Shown here: piece after piece, positions 405 to 34,057 of the stretch
Position numbering within the stretch: the stretch's first letter is position 1
How the letters are laid out: the number at the start of each line of letters is the position of its first letter
IMG/VR virus record: IMGVR_UViG_3300044960_000145
Span: 1-34,057 of that record
DNA from: a virus
Length of the DNA: 34,057 bases
Direction: 5' to 3' (one strand)
The notes under the pieces: model-generated
What the model saw: only the letters and a program-made list of their open reading frames with translations
Database searches by the model: none
What the model was told of the DNA's origin: nothing
Translations under genes and position numbers: made by a program

Positions 405-624
405 AGCATTCGTGGCGAGAGTGTAGCAATTGCTAGGGCCGTCTAAGCGGTCGGTCGACGGCTTATGCGATTGTTCTCGAACCCCAACGGACCGCCGAAG
501 AACATGCTCATAAGCGTGGAGGTGGCCGGAGTCGAACCGGCGTCCGCCGCCCTCCCGCATGCGGGCTTGCGGCGTCGAACCCACCAGGCACCCCCGCGAC
601 CGACTCACCGTACCCCAGGAATCT
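405..624. other. attP region, putative core near 515-545
   Basis: This non-coding stretch between int and the first rightward promoter is where attP is expected for this family. It holds a 10-bp palindrome AGCAATTGCT (425-434) and the dyad GCCGTC/GACGGC (440-463), both candidate arm-type or accessory sites. At 517-545 the minus strand carries the 3' end of a tRNA/tmRNA-type molecule, the T-arm plus the 3' acceptor strand. Such 3' ends are the classic crossover targets of tyrosine integrases. By inference, integration would rebuild the 3' end of the host ssrA gene. The exact core needs the host attB. Confidence 0.65.
517..595 (-). ncRNA. tmRNA-type tRNA-like domain, 79 nt, without an mRNA-like domain
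   Basis: On the minus strand GGGGGTG (595-589) pairs over 7 bp with CACCTCC (524-518), followed by discriminator A517. The T-arm is GCCGG-TTCGACT-CCGGC. The 5' part reads CCTGG then GTTCGAC, and the 3' part begins GGACG before the T-stem. Both ends match the tRNA-like domain of bacterial tmRNA better than a tRNA: there is no T8, no real D-stem and no 7-nt anticodon loop. A GCCGC/GCGGC stem (573-569 with 550-546) enclosing the palindrome CCCGCATGCGGG replaces the tmRNA body. CCA is not encoded. This may be an attP remnant of ssrA that kept both ends, or a functional mini-RNA. Confidence 0.6.
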
Positions 625-2741: not shown

Positions 2742-4400
2742 TCACGACGCCCATTTCCGCACGATCACCAGGTTCGGGTCGAGCGACAGTTGCGTGTCTG
2801 CGACCGAGAGCTGCCCGCGGACGTCGAACGTGATCGCCTGCGTCGTGTCGATCGTCGCTGACGCGACCGACGAGATCTGCGACGCGGTCGTGTCGAGCCC
2901 GAGCCCGAGTGGCTGCGAGCAGTCGAGCGTCGCGAACGACGATGCGCTGCCGGACGCGCCGATCGACGCGATCCTGATGTACCCCATGTACCGCCAGGTG
3001 CGCAGGAACGCGTTGGTCGCGACGTTGCCGGACACGGTCGGCGCTACCTCGACGCCGTCCATCTCGCAGAACACTTCGTAGGTGCGGTTCGCGCCGGTGT
3101 TGTTCGTGATCGTCCCGGACGCCAGGATCTCGATCACGTCGCCTGCACGGAGCGAGTTCGCCGGGATGTCGAACGTCGCGGAGATGATCGACGCCTCCGC
3201 CGCACTGTTCGTGATCGTTGCGCCGCCACCGTCAGCAGCGAGCAAGACCGGCAGGCCAGCCTTCGCGAAACTGTTGCCGTCCCACGAGTAGCCGCGGCCG
3301 ACATCGGTAGCGGCGAACGCACCCGCGTCGACAGTGTTGCCGCGGATACCGATAACTGACAGCGACACCGTGTCGGCACCCTCATCGACCGTCGCATCAA
3401 TGTCGGTCGAATCGACAAGCGCCTTCGGCGTGTTCGACGTCCACTTGCTCGTCCCGTCCGACACGAACTCGCGCCACTCGTACGGCGACGTCAACGTCAC
3501 CGACGTCCCACCATTCAACGTATCGGACCCGGCACGCTGCACCGTGATGCTGTTAGCGGCGGTCACCGTCCCGGACTCGTCCGCGACCGTCACCCTCCAA
3601 CCAGCAGGCACACCATTCGCGGCAGGTAACGTCACCGTACGTGCAGCCGACAGCGTCCCTGTCTGCGCCACATACCGGTCGGTCGCGAGCACCGTATAGT
3701 CGGCGTTCGCGAACGTCGTCCGGTCCGCACGCAACTCCGCCAACACCGTCTCGACGTCGGTACCGGCGAACACGCCTGCCGTGTCGGCGACCGAGATAGC
3801 CGACGCATCATGCGCATCGACCGTGTCGGCCAGATGTGCGTCGAGCTCGGACTGTGTCGCGACATCAGTCCATGCCGTGTTCCCCGCACCGTCCGACACC
3901 GGCGCAGTACCCGACGACGCAACCCCTGTAGCGATACGCGCCTGAGCCAACGTCCCGGACGTGATATCCGACGCCGCATGACCATGCGAACTCGCAGCCT
4001 TCTCGCTGTCGAGTTCCGCAAGCGCGGCCTGCACGTCGGTCGCGGCGATATTGCCAGTCGGGGAGACCGAAATCGCCGACGCTGCATGAGCCGCCGACAC
4101 GTCATTCACATGCGCGTCCAACTCGGCCTGTGTCGCCATATCCGCAGCGAACGACGGATTCGGCAACGACCCGGCGAGCACACCACCCAGATTGTTGATC
4201 TTGTAGTCGATGCTCGACGTGTCCGCCGACCCGTCGACACCGACCTTCGCCGCGACCGCACGCACCTCTCCCGTCAGCCGGCCGTGCTCGGTCGCATGGT
4301 TAAAGCCAGACCCGCCAGCACCGGCGAGGTCGTCGTCGGCATCATTCAAATCATCGGCGGTCGGGTTCGCGTCAGGAAGCGACGTCGGGAAGTTCGCCAT
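2742..4400 (-). CDS. Tail fibre-like minor tail protein with internal repeats
   Basis: The protein is 552 residues, rich in Ala, Thr, Ser and Asp and nearly free of Cys, as is typical of fibrous phage proteins. Residues about 90-240 contain a diverged repeat: TQ[AS]ELDAH, then AAHAASAIS or DAHDASAIS, then a TDV..[AV]LAEL box. It is a common pattern in siphovirus tail fibres. The C-terminal half is predicted beta structure. The start overlaps the preceding stop in a TGATG arrangement. It probably makes host contact together with the downstream SGNH esterase. Naming it receptor-binding protein is inference. Confidence 0.8.
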   Translation of the reverse strand: MANFPTSLPDANPTADDLNDADDDLAGAGGSGFNHATEHGRLTGEVRAVAAKVGVDGSADTSSIDYKINNLGGVLAGSLPNPSFAADMATQAELDAHVNDVSAAHAASAISVSPTGNIAATDVQAALAELDSEKAASSHGHAASDITSGTLAQARIATGVASSGTAPVSDGAGNTAWTDVATQSELDAHLADTVDAHDASAISVADTAGVFAGTDVETVLAELRADRTTFANADYTVLATDRYVAQTGTLSAARTVTLPAANGVPAGWRVTVADESGTVTAANSITVQRAGSDTLNGGTSVTLTSPYEWREFVSDGTSKWTSNTPKALVDSTDIDATVDEGADTVSLSVIGIRGNTVDAGAFAATDVGRGYSWDGNSFAKAGLPVLLAADGGGATITNSAAEASIISATFDIPANSLRAGDVIEILASGTITNNTGANRTYEVFCEMDGVEVAPTVSGNVATNAFLRTWRYMGYIRIASIGASGSASSFATLDCSQPLGLGLDTTASQISSVASATIDTTQAITFDVRGQLSVADTQLSLDPNLVIVRKWAS

Positions 4401-5329: not shown

Positions 5330-5512
5330 CTAGTCGTCAGGGTTCTCTTGGCGGGGCAACACGTCACCCCGCCACTTCTGGTGCAGCCGTGCGAGCACAT
5401 CCGCCCGGAACTGCACGTCAGCCGTCACGAACCGTGCAGTCCGGCGCGCCAACAGCTCCGCGTACAGCCGCTCCGCCTCGCGCTCTACCGCCCGCGCGCG
5501 ACCTGTCGACAC
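5330..5512 (-). CDS. Small helical protein (60 aa)
   Basis: A GTG at 5512 with GGGAG 6 nt upstream gives a 60-residue, Arg/Glu-rich, predicted helical protein that ends 12 nt before the holin start. Its 5' end overlaps the preceding small zinc-motif gene by 28 nt in another frame. A longer start (GTG 5566) lacks a ribosome-binding site. The composition suggests a short coiled coil or nucleic-acid-binding helix. No family is recognised. Confidence 0.6.
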   Translation of the reverse strand: MSTGRARAVEREAERLYAELLARRTARFVTADVQFRADVLARLHQKWRGDVLPRQENPDD

Positions 5513-5640
5513 GTCTGACTCCCACACTCCGGACACCGCCACCCGCCCAAAATCTGTGTCTCCCACAGCCGGACGATGCGCGCATGACAGCTCACAGGAA
5601 GGTCCGGCAGTAGACGCCGGACCAGCTCGTCAACCGTCAC
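5485..5640 (-). CDS. Small CxxC protein (51 aa)
   Basis: The GTG at 5640 overlaps the stop of the previous gene by 3 nt (GTGA), the junction type used throughout this phage. The 51-residue product has a Cys near residue 18 and a CPECGSQTC motif near residues 40-48, a likely zinc knuckle. It sits among other tiny proteins between the metallophosphoesterase and the holin. Function unknown. Confidence 0.6.
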   Translation of the reverse strand: MTVDELVRRLLPDLPVSCHARIVRLWETQILGGWRCPECGSQTCRQVARGR

Positions 5641-31136: not shown

Positions 31137-31435
31137 TGTTGCGGCCTTCCGCCAGGCCACAGAGCGAACAAGACCAGGCCGACCAGACCACACGCGACCG
31201 CCAGCAGCGACACCGGACCCGTGTTCCACGCGCCAGTCTCAGGCAGCCGCGCCGGCGGCTGCTCGACGTCCATCTGCACGACCGGCAGCGACACGGTGGT
31301 CGGCTCGTCGATGACGACCACATCGTCGTGGGTTGCTTCGGTGTCGGGTGTTTGCGCGTCGGCGGTGGCTGCGAGCATGAGTGCGAGGACGATGCCGCCG
31401 AGTACCGCCAGCCCGTAGTCGCGGACGGCACGCAT
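31133..31435 (-). CDS. LPXTG-anchored surface protein
   Basis: ATG 31435 overlaps the previous stop by one base; 100 residues. A signal peptide (MRAVRDYGLAVLGGIVLALM and LAATADAQ, cleavage near 28) is followed by a short acidic, extracellular stretch (29-63), then LPETG at 64-68, a membrane segment (GPVSLLAVACGLVGLVLFAL) and a polar tail (GGRPQQ). This is the complete sortase substrate layout. Host sortase would attach the 36-40 residue exodomain to the peptidoglycan. Encoded in the phage early operon, it may alter the cell surface to block superinfection. Confidence 0.82.
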   Translation of the reverse strand: MRAVRDYGLAVLGGIVLALMLAATADAQTPDTEATHDDVVVIDEPTTVSLPVVQMDVEQPPARLPETGAWNTGPVSLLAVACGLVGLVLFALWPGGRPQQ

Positions 31436-32166
31436 CACTGTCTCCCCACCGCGCACATGCGGTCGAGCAGCTCGCACGCCGACCGCTGCAGCTCGTCGAC
31501 GGTGTCCGCAAGCGCGGCCCCCGCAGCGTCCCACGCAGCGGCCCACGCAGCGGCCCACGCAGCGTCCCACGCAGCGTCCCACGCAGCGGCCCCCGCAGCG
31601 TCCCACGCAGCGGCCCTCGCAGCGGCCCTCGCAGCGTCCCACGCAGCGGCCCCCGCAGCGTCCCCCGCGGCCCACGCAGCGGCCCACGCAGCGGCCCTCG
31701 CAGCGTCCCCCGCGGCCCACGCAGCGGCCCACGCAGCGGCAGCGCGTTCGCGTGCCTCGCGGATCGTCGGCAACGCCGCGTCGACGAGCTCGGTCGCGGT
31801 CAGCTCAGGCAGCGCTTCGAGCGCGGCGGCTTCCGCGTCGAGGCGAGCCCGTCGCAGCCATGCGGGCGTGAACGTCCGGACGAGCCAGTCGCAGGCCATC
31901 CACGCACGCCGCTCGTCGTCCTCGCGGCCCGTGTTGGTGCCGATGACCTTCGGGATGAATGGCCGCAGCAGACGCGTACGCGTCTCGGCGTCGGGAATCG
32001 CGTCGTTCCACGAGACGCAGAACGCGCGGATGACGGGTGACACACACTCGGGCGCGTCGGTGAAGTCCTCGGACGCGTAGAGCGCGGCGGCTTCCATGAC
32101 GCACATGCCGTCGTCGGGTGTCGCGTGCTTGCCGAGGTCGAGGACGATGCTGTCGAGGTCGAGCAT
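31435..32166 (-). CDS. Conserved protein with Ala/Trp tetrapeptide repeats
   Basis: The product is 243 residues from ATG 32166. The first 120 residues are a distinct domain, starting MLDLDSIVLDLGKHATPDDG and containing MCVMEAAALYASEDFTDAPE and LLRPFIPKVIGT, known to me as an unnamed domain widespread in actinobacteria and their phages. Residues about 140-220 consist of A-A-A-W or A-A-W-D type tetrapeptides, a long Ala helix with Trp in register. The end (LQRSACELLDRM) is helical. The Trp/Ala rod could oligomerise or line a membrane. Function unknown. Confidence 0.8.
   Translation of the reverse strand: MLDLDSIVLDLGKHATPDDGMCVMEAAALYASEDFTDAPECVSPVIRAFCVSWNDAIPDAETRTRLLRPFIPKVIGTNTGREDDERRAWMACDWLVRTFTPAWLRRARLDAEAAALEALPELTATELVDAALPTIREARERAAAAWAAAWAAGDAARAAAWAAAWAAGDAAGAAAWDAARAAARAAAWDAAGAAAWDAAWDAAWAAAWAAAWDAAGAALADTVDELQRSACELLDRMCAVGRQ
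31514..31743. repeat. 12-bp tandem repeats
   Basis: About 19 units related to GCAGCGGCCCAC follow each other without interruption, with substitutions mainly at positions 7 and 10-11 (GTCCCAC, GGCCCTC, GGCCCCC). In the minus-strand gene they encode the Ala/Trp tetrapeptides. A few units are shortened to GGCCCAC, keeping the frame. Confidence 0.9.
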
Positions 32167-33302: not shown

Positions 33303-34057
33303 ATGGTCAAGTTCTCGCGGCCGTCTGCCGATACAGACCCCGGTCACACCCCACACGACCCTCGGGGGGAGGTCGTGCCAACACTCTGGACCGCCACCCA
33401 ACGGTACGTACGGGCCCGCGTCGCCGCCGGCGAGTTCGCGCCGTCCAGCGCCGAGAAGAACCACTACACGCTCACCCACTTCGCGCGGACCGTCGGCGAC
33501 CACGTGGCGGTCGCGCGAGTGCGCCGCAAGCACATCGAGCAGTGGCTCGAGTCGCTGACCGTCGCCCAGTCGACCCGGGGCGTCAGGCTGACGATTGTCC
33601 GGAGCTTCTTCGGCTGGTGCGTGGACGTCGGCTACTGCGAGCTGAATCCGTGCGCTGGTATCAAGGGGCCGCGGCGTCCTTCAGCCAACCCGCGTCGGTT
33701 GAAGCGCGAGGAGATAGCACAGCTGCTATCTCATGCTGACGACCGGATGCGGTGTGTGCTGCTGCTCGGCCTGCAGGGGCTGCGGCGCGCCGAAATCGCG
33801 CGGCTCACCACCTCCGACATCGACTGGGACGAGCAGGTCATCTACGTGGCCGGGAAGGGCGGACGGGAGCGGGTCGTCCCACTCTCCGACGATGCCGCGT
33901 TCGGCGTTCGGCAATACCTGAACAGCCACCCGGCTGGGCCGCATCAGCCGCTCATCAGGTCCGAGCTCGACCCGTCACGTGGCGTGACCGCCGCCTGGGT
34001 GGGGACACTCGTCTCCCGCCTGTTCCGGGAGGCGGGCGTGAAACGTCGGCCGTGGGA
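33303..34057 (+). CDS. int: Tyrosine integrase, N-terminal part (continues at 119-350)
   Basis: This part encodes residues 1-251 of the 328-residue integrase. It includes the SAM-like core-binding domain (TLWTATQRYVRARVAAGEF through SFFGWCVDVGYCELNP) and the beginning of the catalytic domain with Arg161 in GLRRAEIARL and Lys185 in GKGGRER. A basic N-terminal arm-binding domain as in lambda Int is absent or very short, so it is a small simple integrase. The ATG at 33303 lacks a clear ribosome site; GTG 33375, with GGGGGGAGG just before it, would remove 24 residues and is a real alternative. It follows the repressor stop by 15 nt. Confidence 0.95.
   Translation, partial: MVKFSRPSADTDPGHTPHDPRGEVVPTLWTATQRYVRARVAAGEFAPSSAEKNHYTLTHFARTVGDHVAVARVRRKHIEQWLESLTVAQSTRGVRLTIVRSFFGWCVDVGYCELNPCAGIKGPRRPSANPRRLKREEIAQLLSHADDRMRCVLLLGLQGLRRAEIARLTTSDIDWDEQVIYVAGKGGRERVVPLSDDAAFGVRQYLNSHPAGPHQPLIRSELDPSRGVTAAWVGTLVSRLFREAGVKRRPW

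Follow-up and report, generated by a model that had tools for sequence, protein, structure and literature searches.

The window analysed here is the whole 34,057-base record of an IMG/VR virus, the two ends of which carry an exact direct terminal repeat of 118 bp (1-118 and 33940-34057), so that the genome, of about 33.9 kb, is probably complete and circular or circularly permuted. The contig was opened inside a tyrosine integrase gene on the plus strand. Its N-terminal part lies at 33303-34057 (start codon approximate; PF00589 positions 2-123 at 33696-34040) and its C-terminal part at 3-350 (PF00589 112-168 at 66-251), and the two halves join across the terminal repeat. The phage also encodes a portal protein and a capsid of HK97 type, and the terminase is nearest to those of actinophages, at 35-41% identity. 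BLAST of the window against phage and plasmid records found no near relative, and the relatives of the integrase among viral contigs are distant only, yielding no attachment data.

Positions 517-595 of the minus strand form a complete tRNA-like domain (TLD) of tmRNA, about 80 nt long, without a tag and without pseudoknots. In this mini-tmRNA gene, which runs from G1 at 595 to the discriminator A73 at 517, the 5′ acceptor strand GGGGGTG (589-595) pairs at all seven positions with the 3′ acceptor strand CACCTCC (518-524). The third pair, which the initial annotation had taken for a departure from tRNA-Ala, is actually G3:U70, with U70 at 520, and G3:U70 is the determinant for alanyl-tRNA synthetase (PMC8363625, PMC3985003). 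The D region CCTGGTGGG (580-588), placed by the Rfam alignment, is followed by TTCGAC (574-579), which includes the equivalents of U17 and G19 of E. coli tmRNA, two bases that touch SmpB in ribosome-bound structures (PMC8363625). The C of GAC and five further bases (569-574) make the 5′ strand of helix 2 and form six Watson-Crick pairs with 550-545, the 3′ strand, which continues into GGAC at 545-542 (542-550 as a whole). Between the two strands, the place of the pseudoknots and the mRNA-like domain is taken by an apical hairpin, CCCG-CATG-CGGG (554-565). The T arm (525-541) has five perfect base pairs and the loop TTCGACT. The 7-bp acceptor, the perfect T arm, the TTCGAC and GGAC motifs and the GC hairpin instead of an mRNA-like domain had all been noticed in the initial annotation, and the alignment to Rfam, the sequence itself and, for the hairpin capping a 6-bp helix 2, the folding agree with that description. 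CGC comes after A73, that is, CCA is not encoded; it is encoded in 41 of 121 unique relatives among the matches listed.

That this is a tmRNA-like domain lacking tag and pseudoknots, as had been claimed, is borne out by the comparison with Rfam covariance models that had been proposed along with the claim. In cmscan, the tmRNA model RF00023 matches 514-595 (minus strand) at 54 bits, above its gathering threshold of 47 (E 1e-18), and the alignment spans model positions 1-374 with the middle deleted; the same result was obtained with the record searched alone. Only 28 nt separate GAC from GGAC, with no room filled by a tag frame or pseudoknots. The gene is thus tmRNA-derived and has no mRNA-like domain, hence is no full tmRNA. 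Neither is it a tRNA, because it has no anticodon arm and no four-arm cloverleaf, the tRNA model RF00005 is not reported for it, and ARAGORN misses it. A permuted two-piece tmRNA is also ruled out by the gene order, 5′ acceptor, D region, helix 2, T arm and 3′ acceptor, in which the T arm does not lie upstream of the D region; the permuted-tmRNA model RF04321 gives a partial, sub-threshold match at 477-544 (18.7 versus 47 bits). A family covariance model, R1, built from 15 relatives of the mini gene, matches the window gene over its full length at 70.5 bits; its scores on 82 mini genes, the 15 training sequences among them, lie between 50 and 89 bits. Among the controls, tRNAs reach at most 35.5 bits and full host or phage tmRNAs at most about 39, with the exception of one (L167) at 49.6. 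The structure as drawn has a folding energy of -40.0 kcal/mol and the minimum free energy is -42.1, with the same stems present. As this energy is unexceptional (z -0.58), it is the covariance score and the relatives that carry the case for the mini gene. No promoter for it was recognised in the sequence of the minus strand.

How widespread are such genes? A first pattern, a TLD with a middle of 14-44 nt and no acceptor base imposed, found 59 viral contigs, and the acceptor is paired in 53 of the 59. When the middle was set to 45-75 nt as a control, 30 matches appeared, only three of them with a paired acceptor, and a chance origin of the matches was rejected on this ground. A second scan of viral contigs with a TLD pattern gave at least 120 matches; both scans together comprise at least 160 loci, at least 121 unique sequences and at least 86 clusters at 85% identity. 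A third scan, in which TTCGAC was not required, added 43 new sequences, and the phage mini genes are well over 100 distinct ones in total (at least 121 in the first set and about 40 later). They include unannotated ones in four named isolates: Stenotrophomonas virus Jojan60, Streptomyces phage pSt2308 and, with greater divergence, Streptomyces phages Alone3 and Riptide. Several sit inside tRNA arrays. The lengths of the D-region and helix 2 arms compensate each other among the cluster representatives (6+31, 7+30, 8+29, 9+28), so that the total length of the genes stays near 82 nt. It is a warning for annotation that ARAGORN overlooks or misnames mini-tmRNA genes; some are called tmRNA with false tags (L003, L121) and one tRNA-Glu (L017).

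Covariation was examined on 85 representatives, that is, the clusters from the matches listed minus L167, which is a true full tmRNA, with an APC-corrected G-test, for which the stem columns had been extracted by a script. The 13 variable stem pairs of the acceptor, helix 2 and the T stem take ranks 1-13 of all column pairs, with scores of 33-191 where the highest background pair reaches 14. It is to be noted that the acceptor and the T stem had entered the sequence filter, of which the acceptor part removed just 6 of 166 candidates, while helix 2 was unfiltered. G3:U70 is present in 85 of the 85 representatives and A73 in all of them; G1:C72 and G2:C71 do not vary either, while acceptor pairs 4-6 vary freely. 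Several conserved bases were fixed by the search patterns, and their conservation is therefore not countable as evidence. In the first scan, which imposed no acceptor base, G3:U70 and A73 were each found in 30 of 30. In the third scan, GAC stands at the site of tmRNA G19-A20-C21 in 40 of the 43 new sequences, 39 of these 40 have U at position 17, and two of the three sequences without GAC resemble tRNAs. To judge from these alignments, the D-loop bases predicted to contact SmpB persist where the search did not impose them, and 517-595 belongs to a phage family of true RNA genes with strong covariation. Such a gene family accounts for the retained and paired 5′ half, which the initial annotation had left unexplained.

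Bacterial genomes give a different picture from viral contigs. A scan of 84,980 genomes, one per species, gave three matches, two of them genuine, where viral contigs had yielded over 120; the pattern used for the genomes was stricter, so the contrast is strong but not exactly matched. One genuine match lies on a phage-like contig of a Mycobacterium MAG (L166) and the other in a tRNA cluster close to which phage-like genes are found (L165); the third was L167, rejected as a mini gene. A search of 396 Actinomycetota genomes with R1 found no further mini gene. The mini-tmRNA thus seems nearly restricted to phages, many of them unrelated. No SmpB gene was found in any of 50 phage records, many of which are fragments. 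Presence in many phages together with near absence from bacterial genomes suggests phage interference with host ribosome rescue.

A TLD-only tmRNA is already known from one phage. As cited in PMC4131195 and PMC11915505, Mao et al. (2009) described such a gene in mycobacteriophage DS6A, and a 2025 census of 97,179 unique tmRNA sequences, in which only nine of standard form have no tag frame, gives DS6A as its phage example (PMC11915505). The window gene is a further member of this type: as far as these citing papers describe DS6A, both are phage genes with little beyond the TLD and no tag, and the window gene carries G3:U70 and A73. By description, they differ in that the window gene adjoins an integrase gene and may overlap attP, whereas DS6A integrates at tRNA-Lys-CTT. 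With bacterial tmRNA (RF00023), the window gene shares a TLD with G3:U70, TTCGAC, GGAC and the T arm, but it has no mRNA-like domain or pseudoknots and its helix 2 is cut to 6 bp and capped. A tag frame is likewise absent from the message-less mitochondrial tmRNAs of jakobids and oomycetes (RF02544) and from the plastid forms of about 65 bp in Mallomonadaceae; these are organellar, with the mitochondrial genes usually permuted, while the window gene is phage-derived. The tmRNA genes of PegLeg (L173), Stenotrophomonas phage IME-SM1 (L225) and the methylophage Melnitz are also phage-borne but, unlike the mini gene, retain a message domain or are two-piece. In the open-licence papers covered, the breadth of the family, its covariation and its invariant identity elements were not found described.

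What would such an RNA do in an infected cell? The reading we favour, with moderate confidence, is that it is an alanine-chargeable decoy which hijacks host SmpB and damps host trans-translation. Host AlaRS would charge the mini-tmRNA with alanine, host SmpB and EF-Tu would bind the charged molecule, and it would compete with host tmRNA for SmpB and stalled ribosomes. Because it has no message, it could neither tag a protein nor transfer the ribosome to a stop codon, and the net effect would be that host trans-translation is damped during infection or lysogeny. We infer that the gene is transcribed, that its product is charged and bound by SmpB, and that the phage benefits. A molecule similar to the DS6A gene product strongly inhibits tmRNA whether charged or not, perhaps via titration of SmpB (PMC4131195). 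SmpB and EF-Tu are also known to accompany a tmRNA fragment into the ribosome (PMC8363625). By analogy, a decoy function fits the published inhibition. Titration of SmpB alone needs no G3:U70, yet G3:U70 is invariant, so the simplest form of the decoy model is incomplete; that G3:U70 and A73 never vary is an argument for selection on charging as well as on SmpB binding. To judge from these bases, the RNA probably works on the ribosome in a complex of Ala-RNA, SmpB and EF-Tu and is more than an SmpB sponge. The initial annotation had suggested either a reduced ssrA, whose ends recombine with the host gene, or a mini tRNA-like RNA that could be charged with alanine or serve as a decoy. The TLD-only form of a reduced tmRNA, the alanine identity and a decoy role in line with the published inhibition are supported; the support for attP is weaker and circumstantial.

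A related view is that the charged mini-tmRNA, as has been proposed for the message-less mitochondrial tmRNAs, relieves a non-stop ribosome of its nascent chain. The peptidyl-RNA would then drop off or be hydrolysed, and stalled phage translation would be cleared while phage proteins escape tagging and proteolysis. Selection for charging, as indicated by the invariant G3:U70 and A73, would suit such a rescue factor, as would the persistence of mitochondrial tmRNAs without a tag frame alongside SmpB (PMC11915505) and the location of the mini gene within tRNA clusters in several phages, like a translation helper. We nevertheless consider it unlikely, since there is no known way to complete the cycle and the sole reported experiment, on a similar molecule, gave inhibition of tmRNA (PMC4131195). 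On the ribosome, the RNA may either block rescue or carry it out without a tag. A broader proposal, which we put forward tentatively and with some doubt, would embrace both outcomes: many kinds of phages independently keep an Ala-charged, message-less tmRNA that frees or jams non-stop ribosomes without tagging. If true, phages would share a general strategy for countering host trans-translation or substituting for it. Now that the family has grown, one can test whether suppression or replacement of trans-translation is routine among phages, and its short RNAs are convenient material for studying how tmRNA and SmpB act.

Quite improbable as a full explanation is that the RNA shape is a mere by-product of attP, the integrase having its attB in the 3′ end of host ssrA. 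The site had been called a probable attP, and in the window phage there is something to be said for it. The integrase gene ends 166 nt from the mini gene (350 to 517), and a 93-bp block (452-544), covering the T arm and 3′ acceptor strand of the mini gene and about 65 nt downstream, is 98.9% identical in a relative, one phage seen in two metagenomes (L230/L233; IMGVR_UViG_3300044960_000642 and IMGVR_UViG_3300045136_000441), in which no tyrosine integrase was found and the mini gene has lost most of its 5′ half. The block looks as an attachment core would, and in 396 Actinomycetota genomes the three best matches, to its first 30 nt or so, are true ssrA 3′ ends, the best being 94% over 32 nt. 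However, attB was not found: in these 396 genomes a search allowing 0-1 mismatch gave no match, and the block did not turn up at full length. A tyrosine integrase (PF00589) is present in 9 of 50 records and missing from the other 41, and in only three does it lie no further than about 1.3 kb from the mini gene; DS6A integrates at tRNA-Lys, not ssrA (PMC10865867). The paired 5′ acceptor, the D region, the closed helix 2 and the covarying family would be left unexplained. In a Moorella phage record (L226 1-200), the ssrA stretch at its start, which overlaps the annotated integrase gene and is probably an attachment fragment, comprises the 3′ part alone (model positions 171-374). For the 5′ half, the covarying family and the integrase census, attP was rejected as the full explanation and is not the general one across the family; in the window phage, the 3′ half of the mini gene is probably also part of attP, as a secondary role that the conserved block points to. 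Points that count against the decoy reading are the missing CCA, the lack of a recognised promoter and the loss of the 5′ half in a close phage relative, so that one lineage at least can do without the RNA. An unusual or minor tRNA-Ala-like RNA with another role, such as an alanine sink or a processing spacer in tRNA arrays, would suit the many copies among phage tRNA genes but is very improbable, as there is no anticodon arm, the tmRNA-specific TTCGAC and GGAC are retained, and R1 and RF00023 set the mini gene apart from tRNAs.

Some further observations were made on the same genomes and on other phages. Just 3′ of the mini gene, the window has an imperfect inverted repeat at 461-515 (arms 461-477 and 499-515). 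The terminase, portal and capsid genes of L230/L233 share 72-78% nucleotide identity with those of the window. That relative also has a 48-nt remnant, GGACGTG...GACG, in which the third pair is A3:U70 and which may represent the mini gene in decay. Window positions 31305-32164, with short internal repeats, are 89% identical to L230, and the matching gene in L233 encodes an Ala-rich repeat protein (AALDAALDAA...). Unannotated permuted tmRNAs were seen in phages (L169, L172, L174, L177, L220, L223, L225) of Alcaligenes, Xanthomonas, Bordetella, Stenotrophomonas, Pseudomonas and Acinetobacter, and in Tunturiibacter phage Tunturi_4 (L222 1120-1881) a release-factor gene with an RF-1 domain lies directly before another (RF04321, 79 bits). 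Mycobacteriophage PegLeg has a GOLLD RNA (216 bits, 2804-3217) inside its tRNA cluster, and one viral contig with a mini-tmRNA (L216) also carries a Pistol ribozyme (65 bits, 5471-5534, minus strand).
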